Assembly (NCBI GenBank): GCA_030605565.1
Contig: JAUWIB010000010.1
Location: forward strand, 1-37,551
DNA: 37,551 nucleotides
Direction of reading: 5' to 3'
From: a bacterium
Lineage (GTDB): Bacteria > Zixibacteria > MSB-5A5 > GN15 > FEB-12
Both the position numbers and the translations under genes were made by a program. The notes below the pieces were generated by a model. That model had not been told where the DNA came from. It was given only the letters and a program-made list of their open reading frames with translations, and searched no databases. This document shows, piece by piece, positions 18,953-26,223 of this stretch. Numbering within the stretch: the stretch's first letter is position 1; each line of letters opens with the position of its first letter.

Positions 18953-19151
18953 CAACATGACGAGTTAGTTAATCCTGCTCACGTTACTGCTTTAGATAAT
19001 CGCTCGTTGGAGACAGAGCAGGGAGCGCTCAAGGCAAGGCTGTTAATTAAGTGTCTTGAGTTGCTGTAATCCGACATCAGTGCCGCTGCAACTTGGAGAA
19101 CATTAAGAACAGCCATAGGTGGACGCCTATTGGCGAGTTCCGAGGGACGTT

Positions 19152-22100
19152 ATGTTAGGTAGTTATTGCTCGACAACCGTGTGGAAATGTACGGGGGCGA
19201 TCCGTACGGTTCCATCAATCCTGCTAAGCACCATTGCGTTGGTGGTGATTCTCGGCGCCAGTTCATTTGCAGCCGAGGTAGTCACCGACTCAACGGTTTA
19301 TGATGTGGGGTCAATCGTCGGCATTGACGGCTTCACATTTGGCTCCGGCGAGACCGTTACTCTCCAGGTCACCGAACTGGACGGAACGCCCATCACCGGC
19401 GACGCCGGTCTGCCCTGGGACGCCACCAGTGACGGCACCGGGGATTTCGGTACCTCCTGGATTCTGGACTACCAGGGGACCAGCAGCGAACTTTCGGTCA
19501 CGGCGGTCGGCCACACCTCCGGCCTGGTTGCTACCACCAGTTTCGTTGCCGGCGCCACCAATCTCGACCAGTTGCAGAACGGTACTGAGACTACGCCTCC
19601 GGAGTGGTCCAACGGCAATATCAACTCCTCTAACTCCTGCTACAGTGAGGGGGCCGCCGTACCGTATCGGGCCTTTATCCGTGATGAGGGATCCGGAACA
19701 CCCCACTATTTCACAATCGAGATGGAGTGGACGAAGGCTGGCATCCATGCTTTTGACTTCCTGGGCAGCTACGACTTCAGCGAGGACTCGGCGATTGATC
19801 TGGCCGGCGGACCTTGCGGTAACGTGGGTACTTCGGCGCCCGAAGATTGCACCGATCCCGCCGACTCTCTGGAGTTCCCGGACCCGACCTTGACCTCGAA
19901 CTACTCCGGGTCGATCCCGTCGGATTTCTACACAACGGTCAATCCCACTTGGGAATACAACGATATTCATTACCTGATGGCCTACAACGCCGTTATCGAC
20001 TCGGTCGGTGATTACTACTTCGGCGGTACCGCCTTGAACCGTACTTGGGCCGTAGAGGTTTACTACACGCAGGTTGATACCGGTACGGTTGGCTTTTACT
20101 GGGGTGGTCACCTGGCTCAGGGGGACCCGGATCATTGGGGCTATGGCAACGGCTCGGCCTCGGTCAGCGGCGCGCCTTACCACATGCGGATGAAGAGCTT
20201 CGACGGTGGTGGTGGCGCCGGTCAGGACCGCAGTATTCAGAACGGCACCATCTGCCTGCCGCCTGCGGCGATAATAATCATTGACGCCGACTCGCTCTGC
20301 TTTGATATCGATACCACCTATATCGCCTATGACACCTCCGACGCCAATGACTGGCTCTGGCGGGTTACCGGCGGCACCATCATTGGCGACAGCACCCTCA
20401 GTTCGGTCGAGTTCTCGGTCGATTCCACAGCGAGCACGGTCACAATTGAGTTGGTTGCCTGCAACACCAACGGCGGCTGCCCCGGCGATTTCTGTTGTAC
20501 CGACGTTACGCTAACGCTGCCGACCGCGAGCTGCAACCACCCGCCGGAGGTGTACTGTGCTGCGGATGATTCCCTTTTCGTGTGTGAGCTTTCGGATATC
20601 TGCGTGACTGGCTTCACCAGCTACGATGCCGACGGGGACGCGCTGACTTGCACGGTGTGGGTGAACGACCAAGTAGACAACATTGACGGAGACAGTGTTT
20701 GCTTTACGCCGGTCGAGGGCGACAACGTAATCACCTACATCTGCACCGATCCGTACGGTGCCGCCGACACCTGCGAGACGCTGATACATGTCGATCTCAA
20801 CAGTCCGCCGACGGCGAGTTGTCCACCCTCCGATACGGTCTTCTTGTGCGAGCTTCCGCCGACCTACTGTCTGGACGGCTTTAGCTGCGACGATCCGGAT
20901 GGCAATGTGGTTTCCTCGACTGTCAACGGAGTTCCTTTCGGTGGCGGTCAGTACTGCTTCACGCCGGTGGAGGGTGACAACAACCTGCAATTGATCTGTG
21001 TCGACGCCTGCGGTGAAACCGACACCTGCCAGACGACGATCACGGTGAGGCTCAACAGCGCTCCGGTGGCTGACGCCGGCCCTGATCAGTCGGTCTTCCT
21101 GGCGGAGCCTGCTGAGATTTGCTGGCCAGCATCCTGCAGCGACGTCGATGGGAACCTGACCGGATGTGCGCTAGTGGAAGGCCCCGGCATCTATGACAAT
21201 ACGAATATCTGCTTTACAACGGACACGCCCGGTGTTTACGTGTTTGTCCTTGAGGCTACTGATGACTGCGCTCCCGGCCGCGCTATAGGTTACACCGACC
21301 GCGACACGGCTGTCATCACGGTGACCTACAATAGTCCTCCCGTAGCTACCTGTCCGGGTGATACGTCGATATTTCTCTGTGAACTGAGTGAGATCTGTAT
21401 TCCCGGCTTTAGCTGTAGTGATGTAGACGGCAACCTGGCCAGTTGTGTTTCTTCGATTGGTACGCTTGTCGGCGACACGGTTTGCTTCACTCCAACCGGT
21501 GTGGGTGTATACACCATTACTTTAATCGCCACTGACTCCTTGGGTGTGGCCGACACTTGCGCCACTAATGTAACGGTTACTGTCAACAGTCCGCCGGTGG
21601 CGAGTTGTCCCGGTGACACGGCACTGTTTGTTTGTGATCTGAGTCCCATTTGTATCACCGGCTTCAACTGTAGTGATGTAGACGGCAACCTGGCCAGTTG
21701 TGTTCCTTCGATAGGGACGCTTGTCGGCGACGTGGTTTGCTTCACCCCGACCGCTGAGGGCGCCTACGATATTATTTTGACGGCCACCGATGACTGTGAT
21801 GAGGTGCACGCTTGCACCACTCAGGTGACGGTTGATCTGAACGAAGCCCCGGTGTGTGATAACTGCCCGACAGATGATACGGTGTTTGTCTGTGATCTGA
21901 GTGAGATTTGCATCGGCGGCTTTGAACCGTGCTTTGACCCCGACTACAACTTGGACTACTGCTATGCTTCGCCCGGCACTTTGACCGGCAGCACGGTCTG
22001 TTTAGATCCGGTGGAGGGAGACAACACGATTCTCTTCATCTGCGTCGACTCCTGTGACGCCGCCGATACCTGTGAGACAGTGATACATGTTGTCCTCAAC

Positions 22101-24338
22101 AGTGCCCCGGTAGTTACCTGTCCTCCGAATGATTCGATGTTCCTGTGCAACCTGTCGGATACTTGTATCTCAGGTTTCAGCAGTTACGACCCGGATGACA
22201 ACCTCGATTACTGCTACGCCATTGGCGGCACGCTGAACGGCGATACGGTTTGCTTCACGCCGGTTGCGGGCGCTAACACGATCACCTACGTCTGCGTTGA
22301 CTCTTGTGGTGATTCGGCCTACTGTCAAACAACCATCTGGGTCGATACCAACAGCGCCCCGGTAGCGGGTTGTCCCGGTGACACTACGCTGTTCGTCTGC
22401 GACCTGACGGAGACATGTCTGTCTGGCTTCAGTTGCACCGATGTAGACGGCAACCTCAAGAGTTGTGTTGCTACGGGAGGAACGCTCAATGGTAACCAGG
22501 TTTGCTTCACTCCGACCGGAGAGGGCGCCTACGATATTATTTTGACGGCCACCGATGCCTGTGATGAGGTGCACGCTTGCACCACTCAGGTGACGGTGAC
22601 TTTGAACCGTCCGCCTGAGGTGACCTGCCCGGATGACTCGACCATTGTTACCTGTCATATCGATAATACGGTTTGTGTCTACGGCTTTAGCGCCACCGAC
22701 CCTGACGGTAACCTGAAGTCCGTCACCCTCAACGGGCAACCATATACACCGGGCACTGAGTATTGTTTTGTCCCCGACTCCGGCCTGAATTACCTCGTCC
22801 TCGTGGCCGTTGATTCCTGCGACGCCAGTGCGGTGTGTACGACCATTGTCGACGTCGTGGCTGAAGATCCTGAAGTGTGCATCAGTTGTCCCATCGTGAC
22901 GATTGAAAAGACACACGGAACGATTCAGGGTCAGCATGAACTCGTCGACGTGACAATCGATAGTCTCTACAACCTCCCGGATGGCGGCATGGGTGGCTAC
23001 GACTTCCTGATTGCCTTCGACGCCTCGGCTCTGGCGTTGCAGGCGGTTATCCCCGGTCCGCCGTTCTACGATCCGGTGCCCAACGGTTGCGGCTGGGAGT
23101 ACTTCATCTACCGCTTTGGCCCTTGCGGCAGTTGCGCCAGCGGCTGTCCCACCGGCATGGTCAGGGTATTCGGACTGGCCGAAACCAACAACGGTCCCAA
23201 CCACCCGGATTGCTTCGAGCCTGACCCTCAGCCGGCCACTCTCTTCACGCTGGACTTCCTGGTCACCAACGACCGCACGTTCGAGTGTCAGTACATCCCA
23301 ATCTATTTCTTCTGGTGCGACTGTGCCGACAACACCATATCTGACTCCACGGGTAACCACCTCTACCTGGATGAGATCATCTATGACTTCGAGGGTCGCC
23401 TTATCTGGGATGAGGACGATGACGATGAGTTCCCCGAGGATGCGCGGATACCCTGGGTAGGCGCCCCGGATTACTGCATCGATCCCGATCCGGGTAAGCC
23501 CACACCCATTAGGTGCCTTGACTTTTGGAACGGCGGTATCGACATTGTCTGCGCCGACTCCATCGACGCCCGCGGTGACATTAATCTCAACGGCACCTCA
23601 AACGAAATCGCCGATGCGGTGTTGTTCAGCAACTACTTCGTCAAGGGCATCTCGGTGTTCAATGTCAATGTCAACGGTCAGATTGCGGCTTCCGACGTCA
23701 ATGCCGATGGTCTCACGCTGTCGGTCGCTGATCTTGTCTACCTGATCCGGATCATCGTCGGTGACGCGGCTCCGTACTTCAAGCAGGCTCCGCTTGTCAT
23801 CAAAACCGATCTGACCGATGGCGTGCTGAGCGTTGGGGCCTCGCTGGGCGCCGCCTGGGTGGTTCTGGATGGTGAGCATGAACCGGAGTTGCTCGCGCCC
23901 CAGATGGAAATGAAGTACCACTACGATGCCGAAAGCGACCTGACTCGGATACTGGTGTACAGTATGAAGAAGGGTCACACCTTCGACGGAGCCTTTCTGG
24001 CCGGACTCGAAGGTAAGGTCGTAACATTCGAGGCCGCCACCTACGAGGGCGCACCCGTGGCGGCGCGGCTGGTTCCTGATCAGTTCGCGCTGCATCAGTG
24101 CTACCCCAATCCCTTCAACCCGACGACAACAATCTCCTTTGCCCTGGCCGAGGCGTCGGACTACAAGCTGACCGTCTACAACACCTTAGGCCGCGAGGTA
24201 CAGTCCTTTACCGGCCACGGACAGCCTGGTATTGTGGAGATACAGTGGAACGCTGATGGCCATGCCAGCGGCATCTACTTCTACCGGTTGACGGCAGGGG
24301 ACTTCACCGACACCAAGAAAATGGTGCTGTTGAAATAA
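19152..24338 (+). CDS. Giant secreted multi-repeat protein with cohesin-like, dockerin-like and NPFNP sorting domains
   Basis: The product is 1728 residues. ATG 19152 follows GAGGGA (19142-19147). The N-terminus has a basic stretch, then a hydrophobic core (ILLSTIALVVILGASSFA), a signal peptide with cleavage near AA-EV. After a unique region come nine tandem Cys-rich repeats of about 86 residues (20535-22862), most starting N-(S)-(P/A)-P-(V) and containing D-x-D-G-N-L and a late V-C-F-T-P, Ig/HYR-like. A cohesin-like domain follows (GGYDFLIAFDASALALQAVI), then a dockerin-like segment with D-x-N-x-(N/D)-G loops (RGDINLNGTS, SDVNADGLTLS). The last 80 residues begin CYPNPFNPTTTISF and end GIYFYRLTAGDFTDTKKMVL, a type-A-like C-terminal sorting domain. 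It is probably surface-anchored or released; the role may be adhesive or structural. Repeat DNA is partly near-identical. Confidence 0.9.
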   Translation: MLGSYCSTTVWKCTGAIRTVPSILLSTIALVVILGASSFAAEVVTDSTVYDVGSIVGIDGFTFGSGETVTLQVTELDGTPITGDAGLPWDATSDGTGDFGTSWILDYQGTSSELSVTAVGHTSGLVATTSFVAGATNLDQLQNGTETTPPEWSNGNINSSNSCYSEGAAVPYRAFIRDEGSGTPHYFTIEMEWTKAGIHAFDFLGSYDFSEDSAIDLAGGPCGNVGTSAPEDCTDPADSLEFPDPTLTSNYSGSIPSDFYTTVNPTWEYNDIHYLMAYNAVIDSVGDYYFGGTALNRTWAVEVYYTQVDTGTVGFYWGGHLAQGDPDHWGYGNGSASVSGAPYHMRMKSFDGGGGAGQDRSIQNGTICLPPAAIIIIDADSLCFDIDTTYIAYDTSDANDWLWRVTGGTIIGDSTLSSVEFSVDSTASTVTIELVACNTNGGCPGDFCCTDVTLTLPTASCNHPPEVYCAADDSLFVCELSDICVTGFTSYDADGDALTCTVWVNDQVDNIDGDSVCFTPVEGDNVITYICTDPYGAADTCETLIHVDLNSPPTASCPPSDTVFLCELPPTYCLDGFSCDDPDGNVVSSTVNGVPFGGGQYCFTPVEGDNNLQLICVDACGETDTCQTTITVRLNSAPVADAGPDQSVFLAEPAEICWPASCSDVDGNLTGCALVEGPGIYDNTNICFTTDTPGVYVFVLEATDDCAPGRAIGYTDRDTAVITVTYNSPPVATCPGDTSIFLCELSEICIPGFSCSDVDGNLASCVSSIGTLVGDTVCFTPTGVGVYTITLIATDSLGVADTCATNVTVTVNSPPVASCPGDTALFVCDLSPICITGFNCSDVDGNLASCVPSIGTLVGDVVCFTPTAEGAYDIILTATDDCDEVHACTTQVTVDLNEAPVCDNCPTDDTVFVCDLSEICIGGFEPCFDPDYNLDYCYASPGTLTGSTVCLDPVEGDNTILFICVDSCDAADTCETVIHVVLNSAPVVTCPPNDSMFLCNLSDTCISGFSSYDPDDNLDYCYAIGGTLNGDTVCFTPVAGANTITYVCVDSCGDSAYCQTTIWVDTNSAPVAGCPGDTTLFVCDLTETCLSGFSCTDVDGNLKSCVATGGTLNGNQVCFTPTGEGAYDIILTATDACDEVHACTTQVTVTLNRPPEVTCPDDSTIVTCHIDNTVCVYGFSATDPDGNLKSVTLNGQPYTPGTEYCFVPDSGLNYLVLVAVDSCDASAVCTTIVDVVAEDPEVCISCPIVTIEKTHGTIQGQHELVDVTIDSLYNLPDGGMGGYDFLIAFDASALALQAVIPGPPFYDPVPNGCGWEYFIYRFGPCGSCASGCPTGMVRVFGLAETNNGPNHPDCFEPDPQPATLFTLDFLVTNDRTFECQYIPIYFFWCDCADNTISDSTGNHLYLDEIIYDFEGRLIWDEDDDDEFPEDARIPWVGAPDYCIDPDPGKPTPIRCLDFWNGGIDIVCADSIDARGDINLNGTSNEIADAVLFSNYFVKGISVFNVNVNGQIAASDVNADGLTLSVADLVYLIRIIVGDAAPYFKQAPLVIKTDLTDGVLSVGASLGAAWVVLDGEHEPELLAPQMEMKYHYDAESDLTRILVYSMKKGHTFDGAFLAGLEGKVVTFEAATYEGAPVAARLVPDQFALHQCYPNPFNPTTTISFALAEASDYKLTVYNTLGREVQSFTGHGQPGIVEIQWNADGHASGIYFYRLTAGDFTDTKKMVLLK
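20535..22862 (+). repeat. Nine tandem about 86-codon Cys-rich repeats in the secreted protein gene
   Basis: Nine units run from NHPPEVYC to the VDVVA before EDPEVC. At DNA level, 21756-21831 and 22521-22596 (76 bp) differ at one base. A 37-bp block starting at 21413 and at 21668 is identical. Unit 3 has lost several of the otherwise conserved cysteines. Confidence 0.85.
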
Positions 24339-24538: not shown

Positions 24539-24580
24539 TGGCTCCCCCGGCTGGACTTGAACCAGCGACCCACTGATTAA
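24539..24580 (-). pseudogene. Orphan 3' half of a tRNA-Asn-like gene, with encoded CCA
   Basis: Read on the minus strand from 24580 to 24539, this is the 3' anticodon strand, variable region, a fully paired T arm (GCTGG/CCAGC around TTCAAGT), the acceptor 3' strand, and CCA. 24541-24580 matches the 3' part of the intact tRNA-Asn (24870-24909) at 35 of 40 positions. Four of the five differences are two compensated T-stem pairs, so it derives from a distinct functional tRNA. The 5' half is absent; a perfect 7-bp palindrome (24581-24596) and the nuclease gene replace it. Confidence 0.75.
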
Positions 24581-24849
24581 TCCCGCCTTGGCGGGACTCT
24601 ACCAAGATCGTCAAGATAGCGCTTGATGCCCCGCTTCTTGATCTGTCTTTCCGGTTTCATCGCTTCCGAACGTGTTGGACAGGCTCGTTCCCACCCCAAC
24701 ATCCAGGGGCCGGCGAATCGCTTGGTCGTCTTTGTACCGTGGTAATCGGGATCGTTGTGCTGCTTTAACCTTCGGCTCAAACTGCTTGTATGTCCACAGT
24801 AGTATCGTGAAGTGGTACTGCTTCTGAGTATGTAAACGTGAAAAGACAT
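24577..24849 (-). CDS. Small GIY-YIG nuclease (UPF0213/YhbQ-like) lodged between tRNA sequences
   Basis: The product is 90 residues, a minimal single-domain GIY-YIG endonuclease. It has VYI at 5-7, YYCG at 16-19, RR at 26-27, H31, and a likely catalytic Glu at E67 (EAMKPERQIKK). ATG 24849 opens a frame starting MSFHVYILRS. A 101-residue alternative from 24882 would begin inside the tRNA and is less likely. The gene starts 21 bp after the 3' end of intact tRNA-Asn, on the same strand. Its last codons (GRVPPRRD) run into a GC palindrome, and its TAA stop lies inside the orphan tRNA 3' half. It is probably co-transcribed with the tRNA. Proteins of this type nick or cut DNA; the role of this one in mobility is inference. 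Confidence 0.8.
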   Translation of the reverse strand: MSFHVYILRSSTTSRYYCGHTSSLSRRLKQHNDPDYHGTKTTKRFAGPWMLGWERACPTRSEAMKPERQIKKRGIKRYLDDLGRVPPRRD

Positions 24850-24870
24850 CAGGGACCAGCCAAAACTAAG

Positions 24871-24943
24871 CTCCCCCGGCAAGACTTGAACTTGCGACCC
24901 GCTGATTAACAGTCAGCTGCTCTACCAACTGAGCTACAGGGGA
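24871..24943 (-). tRNA. tRNA-Asn (anticodon GTT)
   Basis: The 73-nt cloverleaf is complete. The acceptor stem TCCCCTG pairs with CGGGGGA (one G-U), the D arm contains AGCTCAGTTGGTAGAGCA-like sequence, the anticodon loop is CTGTTAA, and the T stem GCAAG/CTTGC encloses TTCAAGT. The discriminator is G. CCA is not encoded (CTT follows), unlike the orphan 3' half downstream. A consensus promoter precedes it on the same strand. Confidence 0.95.
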
Positions 24944-24976: not shown

Positions 24977-25004
24977 ATTATATTCTTTCTCGGCGTTTTG
25001 TCAA
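24977..25004 (-). promoter_or_regulatory. Consensus sigma-70-type promoter for tRNA-Asn
   Basis: On the minus strand, TTGACA (25004-24999), a 16-bp spacer, then TATAAT (24982-24977). Both hexamers are perfect, and transcription would begin about 27 nt before the mature tRNA 5' end. Confidence 0.75.
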
Positions 25005-25191: not shown

Positions 25192-26223
25192 ATGAAATGT
25201 TTCCTGAAGATAACTCTGGTAGTGCTGGCCCTGGCGGCCCTGGTGTTCGGCGCCGCCATTGCCAAAAGCTCTCGCTCCGACCGCGGCGCGTGGCTCGGTG
25301 TGGTAACGCAGTCGGTCGACTATGACCTGGCTGAGGCCTTCAATCTTGAGGTCAAATACGGTGTTATCGTAAATGAAGTGGTCGACGACTCCCCGGCGGA
25401 AGAGGCCGGGCTGGAGAACGACGACATTATTGTCTCGGTCGACGGTGAGCGCATCACCGATTACGATGATCTGGTCGATATGCTGACTGAGCATGGGGAG
25501 GGGGAGCAGATCACAATCGGTCTGATCCGTGACGGCAAAGCGCTTGATGTTCAGGTCGAACTGGCCAAACGACCCCGCGGCCGAGGTGATCTGGACTGGC
25601 ATTCTCAGTTCAGTTATGATTACAAAGTCCCGTTCGGACGGAGCCATTCCTATATCGGCGTTCAACTCAGCGATCTCACCGATCAATTGGGTGAGTTCTT
25701 CGGAGTCGAGCGAGGTCGGGGCGCCCTGATCCGGGATGTTGAGAAAGATTCACCGGCTGCAGATGCCGGATTGAAAGCAGGCGATGTTATTGTCTCGATT
25801 GACAGCGACAAGATGCGCGACGCCGGTGATGTGGTCGAGTATATACTCGATACCGACCCTGGCGAGCAGGTCAGTATCACCGTGATGCGTGACAAAGCCG
25901 AGCTTACCGTGGAGGTCGAGGTCGATGAGTCGCCTGGCGGCTCTCGATACGGCAACATCTTCCATGGTTTTAATGGTCTGTCCAGCCTGCGCCACCTGGA
26001 CGCGCTGGATGAGTTGGACGACCTGGACCATGGTCTGAATATCCGCATTCCGAATCTGCATGCCCCGTTGGTCACCGGCTATTTCGATCCGGACGATTTC
26101 GATGGCGGCGAACTCAAGCGTGAGATGAAGAGACTTCGCAAGGAAATGCTGGATATGCAAAAGGAGTTACGTCACGAGATAAACCAGGAACTCGACGAAC
26201 TCCGCGAAATGATCGATAACTGA
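25192..26223 (+). CDS. Exported protein with two PDZ domains and a C-terminal coiled coil
   Basis: The product is 343 residues. An N-terminal signal peptide is clear (MKCFLKITLVVLALAALVFGAAIA). Two PDZ domains follow. The first is about 32-127 (AWLGVVTQ, GVIVNEVVDDSPAEEAGL, NDDIIVSVDG). The second is about 150-245 (SYIGVQL, GALIRDVEKDSPAADAGL, AGDVIVSIDS). The DegP/HtrA serine-protease domain normally found N-terminal to such PDZ domains is missing. A C-terminal helix of about 45 residues (LKREMKRLRKEMLDMQKEL) is highly charged and likely coiled coil. It may be a periplasmic scaffold or a regulator of a separate protease. GAGGTGA lies upstream of ATG 25192. Monocistronic, with its own terminator. 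Confidence 0.88.
   Translation: MKCFLKITLVVLALAALVFGAAIAKSSRSDRGAWLGVVTQSVDYDLAEAFNLEVKYGVIVNEVVDDSPAEEAGLENDDIIVSVDGERITDYDDLVDMLTEHGEGEQITIGLIRDGKALDVQVELAKRPRGRGDLDWHSQFSYDYKVPFGRSHSYIGVQLSDLTDQLGEFFGVERGRGALIRDVEKDSPAADAGLKAGDVIVSIDSDKMRDAGDVVEYILDTDPGEQVSITVMRDKAELTVEVEVDESPGGSRYGNIFHGFNGLSSLRHLDALDELDDLDHGLNIRIPNLHAPLVTGYFDPDDFDGGELKREMKRLRKEMLDMQKELRHEINQELDELREMIDN

Follow-up and report, generated by a model that had tools for sequence, protein, structure and literature searches.

What is a very small nuclease gene doing between an intact tRNA gene and part of a second copy of that tRNA, and how did it come to be there? The question is raised by a locus in the window, which is the whole 37,551-nucleotide stretch of Zixibacteria DNA that was analysed. 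A sequence-only reading of the window had given the minus-strand order as promoter, tRNA-Asn without CCA, 90-residue GIY-YIG nuclease and orphan tRNA-Asn 3' half with CCA, and had proposed that the nuclease entered and rebuilt the tRNA gene. The coordinates of that order are right (Table 1), and the proposal is correct in its main lines and narrower than the phenomenon itself. In the window there is probably a single copy of a small, homing-type selfish element that is resident on tRNA genes and consists of a solo GIY-YIG gene and a pseudo-tRNA interrupted by a palindrome.

Table 1. Features of the tRNA-Asn locus, in window coordinates.
Feature	Position	Strand	Evidence and remarks
tRNA-Asn promoter	24977..25004	(-)	-35 TTGACA 25004-24999, -10 TATAAT 24982-24977, 16-bp spacer; read by eye
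Intact tRNA-Asn(GTT)	24870..24943	(-)	ARAGORN; CCA not encoded; 3' half is the presumed incoming copy
Single-domain GIY-YIG nuclease	24577..24849	(-)	90 aa plus stop; ATG 24849, TAA 24579-24577; PF01541 E 1.7e-16
D-arm piece of pseudo-tRNA-Asn, TTGGTAGAG	24597..24605	(-)	Sequence; relatives show the same joint
Palindrome TCCCGCC-AA-GGCGGGA	24581..24596	(-)	Perfect, 7-bp stem; stands in for tRNA nt 25-34
Displaced native (probable) tRNA-Asn 3' half, encoded CCA	24539..24580	(-)	Begins TTAATCAG, ends GAGCCA; matches congener tRNAs
PDZ-domain gene, outside the element	25192..26223	(+)	Divergent neighbour; adjoins tRNA-Asn across the genus; marker for empty sites

Over the whole window, the intact tRNA-Asn(GTT) is the sole tRNA called by ARAGORN, and 20 nt separate its end from the nuclease ATG. 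The second copy overlaps the 3' end of the nuclease ORF, such that the C-terminus of the protein, GRVPPRRD, is encoded inside it. A 3' half with CCA is present in this copy, as had been described. The remnant as a whole is, however, a pseudo-tRNA made up of a D-arm piece, a palindrome and a 3' half, and a bare 3' half was rejected because the other two parts stand before it. In the occupied locus the pseudo copy has its anticodon arm replaced, with an intact tRNA still beside it. A recount of the intact and orphan 3' halves agrees with the earlier figure of 35 matches in 40, with compensated differences in the T-stem. Rfam returned only intact tRNAs above its cut-off when the pseudo-tRNA region was searched. 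The palindrome was also considered as an intrinsic terminator and rejected, no T-run following it. Convergent with the cassette is a 1739-aa ORF (window 19119-24338, plus strand) that has a C-terminal Por secretion sorting domain and ends about 200 bp past the cassette.

Sites without the nuclease are found in the same genus. Beside the same PDZ gene, four congeners (G001, G002, G004 and G005) have one complete tRNA-Asn each and no nuclease, and the tRNA is preceded by a promoter homologous to that of the window. These sites support the entry of a nuclease-only cassette into this tRNA-Asn locus, and with a single tRNA-Asn here in all four there is no support, among the available relatives, for two complete tandem genes and a later deletion. 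Uninterrupted genes that match the orphan half, which the sequence-only reading had suggested looking for, do exist: the match is 40/40 in G004 and 38/40 in G005, the closest relative by identity of the neighbouring PDZ protein (94%). In the window's intact gene, the 3' half instead resembles that of G002, differing at one position in 40. For these reasons the native 3' half is probably the orphan one, and that of the present intact gene the incoming one. By eye, no resemblance to the 3' flank of the locus in the window is apparent in G001, G002 or G004, and the G005 contig ends 3 bp past the tRNA. The contigs of the two closest relatives break in or just after tRNA-Asn (G006:C355:1-43 and the end of G005:C259), as expected if repeats are present there.

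The arrangement is not confined to the window. The eight nearest homologues of the nuclease in the phylum (52-63% identity, five families) are all at tRNA-Asn, and pseudo-tRNA-Asn copies bearing this type of palindrome adjoin nearly all of them. This clade is present in 9 of the 132 phylum genomes, the window's genome counted, which rules out a fixed core gene. A scan of approximately 85,000 species identified 34 loci, seven of them identical to phylum records already found, in Desulfobacterota, Myxococcota, Acidobacteriota, Sumerlaeota, Fermentibacterota and Calditrichota. An intact tRNA-Asn is no more than 420 bp away at 23 of 36 distinct loci, and two more, in Calditrichota, are at tRNA-Pro. 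The remaining 11 mostly have contig ends close by, and 10 of them carry tRNA-Asn sequence; the genomes are mostly MAGs, and in several cases the contig ends within or next to the locus. The joint of D-arm, palindrome and anticodon-loop TTAA recurs beside homologous nucleases in dozens of genomes and is thus not a chance feature of the window. A strict-pattern search for the Asn joint gives at least four genomes, since TTAACC variants are missed by it.

What had been described as a single case is therefore a family across at least six phyla, with two insertion forms and with other tRNA isoacceptors, and tRNA duplications flanking GIY-YIG genes, for which a survey had been proposed, recur clade by clade beside homologous nucleases. 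The tie of the window's clade to tRNA-Asn, together with the uninterrupted, nuclease-free tRNA-Asn of the congeners, is the site-specific insertion expected of a homing endonuclease. Mobility is suggested by the patchy presence in 9/132 genomes, by the mixing of phyla in the Asn clade, by the empty sites in congeners, and by one pseudo-tRNA that is present in G018 and absent from its congener G064. A phage origin was rejected, no relative of the nuclease being found among 50,697 phage records or in viral contigs. Orphan tRNA-Asn 3' halves are also found away from the tRNA gene in two genomes (G062:C1:3597651-3597692 and 2963162-2963204; G054:C244:10703-10744), and these are perhaps att sites of ordinary islands or additional copies of the element.

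A search between D-arm GGTAGAG and anticodon-loop TTAAYC that imposed no palindrome requirement gave 38 distinct sequences, nearly all of them self-complementary. Both sides of the stem vary together (TCCCGCC/GGCGGGA, TCCCGCT/AGCGGGA, TCCCGAT/ATCGGGA, TTCCGAC/GTCGGAA), and the pattern in its tRNA context is TYCCG..CGGRA. In Asn-clade loci, 56 of 62 palindromes abut a tRNA loop (anticodon 40, T 13, D 3) and, at the opposite end, 38 come after the D-stem GAG and 8 after TTAA; the search behind these 62 required a palindrome, making their pairing, though not their positions, a matter of construction. More than one tRNA arm is touched in L116 and L119. In the downstream pseudo-tRNAs of L109, L123, L126 and L137 the remnant of the anticodon arm is separated from a second palindrome, at the T loop, by an additional hairpin-like segment (about GGCTGAGGCGACAGCC), which is similar across organisms.

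Two insertion forms can be distinguished. The right-hand form, found in the window and in L079, L081, L109, L118, L120 and L123, has the intact tRNA, the nuclease and then the pseudo-tRNA. In the left-hand form (G061, G062 and G114) a copied promoter and the pseudo-tRNA come first, followed by the nuclease and the intact tRNA. In six right-hand loci the duplicated 3' half is 40-41/41 identical, with the terminator also duplicated in some; the window agrees with the proposal that its two halves have different lineages of origin, but divergence between the halves is therefore not a general feature. Pseudo-tRNA copies also form arrays (L133; L123), some genomes have them in the absence of a nuclease (G018, G020, G063), and in several loci the nuclease lies beyond the tRNA terminator.

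Both forms could arise by one route. The nuclease would cut a tRNA gene not yet invaded, at a stem-loop or close to one; the joints suggest a position just before the TT of the loop. Recombination through the tRNA segments flanking the palindrome would install the cassette. A crossover 3' of the palindrome would give tRNA, nuclease and pseudo-tRNA plus the displaced native 3' half, as in the window; one 5' of the palindrome would give pseudo-tRNA, nuclease and an intact tRNA with a copied promoter, as in G061, G062 and G114. Repeated events would generate the tandem arrays. Either crossover would always leave one intact, host-promoted tRNA, and the host would therefore survive. Most likely, the palindrome deprives the pseudo copy of its cleavage or structure target and prevents the nuclease mRNA from folding as a tRNA; it may also be the recognition target of the nuclease. 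The intact tRNA beside the nuclease would itself be a target; cutting would therefore have to be rare, or the target elsewhere, or repair would have to restore the gene.

Other tRNAs have sister clades of the nuclease. GIY-YIGs at 29-47% identity are found, with pseudo-tRNA pieces, at tRNA-Met, Asp/Val, Ala, Gly and Thr. The palindrome is TCCCGAT..ATCGGGA in the Ala and Val pseudo-tRNAs, TCCCGACC..GGTCGGGA in those of Asp, AATCCGCC..GGCGGATT in those of Met, and TGGCGC..GCGCCA in the tRNA-Pro copies of Calditrichota. In a tree of 79 nucleases the tRNA-linked group is set apart from the non-tRNA GIY-YIGs with an SH-aLRT of 99. Each nuclease clade is tied to particular tRNAs, that of the window to tRNA-Asn: tRNA type changes 9 times among the tRNA-linked rows, and shuffles of all labels never give a number that low. 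The Asn clade itself, in which phyla are mixed, has an SH-aLRT of only 89, and fine branching is unreliable because the tree has only 82 columns. Of the tRNAs within 420 bp of a nuclease, 60 are on the same strand and none is on the opposite strand.

Related nucleases are also found away from tRNAs. This is the case for three of the four solo GIY-YIGs in the window's genome, and two of these (L002:1076-1294 and L004:1501-1716) are bracketed by CGTC-type palindromic repeats. For one such gene there are 29 further relatives in the phylum (L173-L201), of which only two have a tRNA at the locus (tRNA-Ser and tRNA-SeC). A repeat common to both 400-bp flanks, mostly GTCATTCC-stem-GGAATCCAG, is present in 23 of the 29, compared with 4 of 214 random segments, and tRNA-Asn pseudo-copy loci account for 3 of these 4. 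The repeats of this non-tRNA clade have cores very similar to the palindromes of the tRNA clade, ATTCCCGC..GCGGGAAT. Among six records from a plasmid collection, four have repeats on both sides (Neisseria, Sinorhizobium, Shinella and Azospirillum; L202, L203, L206 and L207) and those from Photobacterium and Rhizobium have them on one side only. On the Azospirillum lipoferum plasmid AZO_p3 (L207), the GIY-YIG gene and its flanking palindromes lie between sufB and sufC, apparently splitting the suf cluster.

CGTC REPs have been stated to be without a dedicated transposase, and in 2013 the enzyme that mobilises them was reported as missing (PMC3733652). The non-tRNA solo GIY-YIG is a candidate for this enzyme. 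The REP/RAYT system and the CGTC REPs share with the window's family short GC-rich palindromes tied to one small nuclease, and the cores of the CGTC REPs are similar to the family's palindromes (PMC3733652). RAYTs are tyrosine (HUH) transposases (PMC3733652), whereas the partner here is a GIY-YIG and the palindromes are inside pseudo-tRNAs. A REPtron would have an HUH transposase and GTAG-tagged palindromes; the window's family has a GIY-YIG gene and TYCCG..CGGRA palindromes in a tRNA context. It is plausible, though short of probable, that solo GIY-YIGs are the autonomous partners of an entire class of palindromic repeats in bacteria, with a branch that mobilises CGTC REPs and a sister tRNA branch that has specialised clade by clade, puts palindromes into tRNA stem-loops and always leaves one working tRNA.

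The nuclease itself belongs to the GIY-YIG superfamily, as its PF01541 match and its catalytic Tyr, Tyr, Arg, His and Glu indicate. Residues Y7, Y18, G20, R28, H32 and E68 are invariant across clades in a 14-row alignment, by whose numbering they are given and which has one extra N-terminal residue relative to the window ORF. The AlphaFold model (pLDDT 84.5) is a bare GIY-YIG domain, and known homing endonucleases differ in having a separate DNA-binding domain, of which the 90-aa protein has none. Its nearest solved folds are UPF0213 and Slx1, with UvrC and I-TevI weaker. Slx1 is a branched-DNA nuclease, and for this reason recognition of hairpins or cruciforms is a serious rival. The enzyme would then be structure-specific, recognising DNA hairpins, either the palindromes or the cloverleaf of single-stranded tRNA DNA, and joining palindrome ends to loops as a mobiliser of REP type, with tRNA genes favoured as landing sites because they are runs of stem-loops. 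That palindromes abut the loops of all three tRNA arms, and that related non-tRNA GIY-YIGs are bracketed by repeats with very similar cores, fits this explanation as well as the fold does. The fidelity of each clade to its tRNA isoacceptors argues for some sequence recognition, and we consider the structure-specific explanation a real but lesser prospect.

The nuclease is under purifying selection, with dN/dS of 0.12-0.20 in the three Asn-clade pairs of finite dS and 0.08 in a Gly pair, other pairs being saturated. Selection of this kind, the same-strand layout, and stems that vary on both sides yet stay paired would also suit a module that benefits the host, one for regulated RNA processing or stress within the tRNA operon with the pseudo-tRNA as decoy or leader. 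This is improbable given a distribution that is patchy and horizontally mixed, congeners that lack the cassette, and those loci in which the nuclease is past the tRNA terminator, where expression would therefore be low.

Integrative elements at tRNA 3' ends leave a reconstituted tRNA and a displaced 3' half, both of which are seen in the window. A tyrosine-integrase island could have left attL and attR at the tRNA 3' end and lost all but the nuclease, and in L079, L081, L110 and L118 the duplication does begin at the anticodon loop, extend slightly beyond the tRNA 3' end and then diverge, as att cores do. This origin is already disfavoured and very unlikely. The same minimal layout with the nuclease as sole cargo is found in dozens of genomes and in arrays, the tRNA 5' half and, in left-hand forms, the promoter are copied too, and the att sites of integrases do not typically have palindromes. 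Reading of the loci and of the window, part of whose proteins were scanned, revealed no integrase gene near the tRNA. Least credible of all, and already contradicted by the recurrence, is a tandem tRNA duplication that decayed and received a nuclease by chance: sister genomes do hold pseudo-tRNA copies without the nuclease (G018, G020, G063), but no congener has two complete tRNA-Asn genes here, a palindrome that varies yet stays paired is not a decay product, and the 60 to 0 strand bias and clade-tRNA fidelity are against it.

The preferred reading, a selfish homing-type element on tRNA genes, has partial counterparts elsewhere. In fungal mtDNA, mobile endonuclease ORFs (mORFs) make gene hybrids, in atp6 of Allomyces and in atp6, atp9, cox2 and nad3 of Glomus (PMC3630166). 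As is probably the case in the window, a free-standing endonuclease gene brings in a 3' end of foreign origin in place of that of the host gene, and the native end is displaced downstream and best matches close relatives (PMC3630166). The reasoning by which the window's orphan half is taken as native is the one applied to these hybrids (PMC3630166). The mORFs are in mitochondrial protein genes, the detailed example being a LAGLIDADG ORF (PMC3630166), whereas the window has a bacterial tRNA gene, a solo GIY-YIG and a palindrome at the joint. SegB is a GIY-YIG homing endonuclease of T-even phages, often associated with tRNA genes, that causes a tRNA segment to be amplified in tandem through homologous recombination (PMC13096335). 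This is comparable to the pseudo-tRNA arrays described above and makes it plausible that arrays in the window's family are nuclease-driven. SegB differs in being phage-borne, and the consulted passages report no palindrome-bearing pseudo-tRNAs (PMC13096335); the window's nuclease is bacterial and had no match in the phage records and viral contigs searched. In the journal literature, mostly open-access, no report was found linking GIY-YIG to CGTC repeats or to bacterial tRNA pseudo-copies, and the family of selfish elements on tRNA genes is apparently undescribed.

If this reading is correct, the tRNA genes of many bacteria are host to dedicated minimal selfish elements of about 300-400 bp, which copy pieces of host tRNA and rebuild the tRNA that they invade. 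Such elements would account for the presence beside tRNA genes of tRNA fragments, of pseudo-tRNAs in tandem and of GC-rich hairpins, and would be a source of natural tRNA replacement between species. They would also point to a candidate enzyme for CGTC-tagged REPs that can be tested (PMC3733652). Should the association of GIY-YIGs with palindromic repeats as a class be true as well, these would form a third category of small selfish elements in bacteria, alongside IS/MITE and RAYT/REP.
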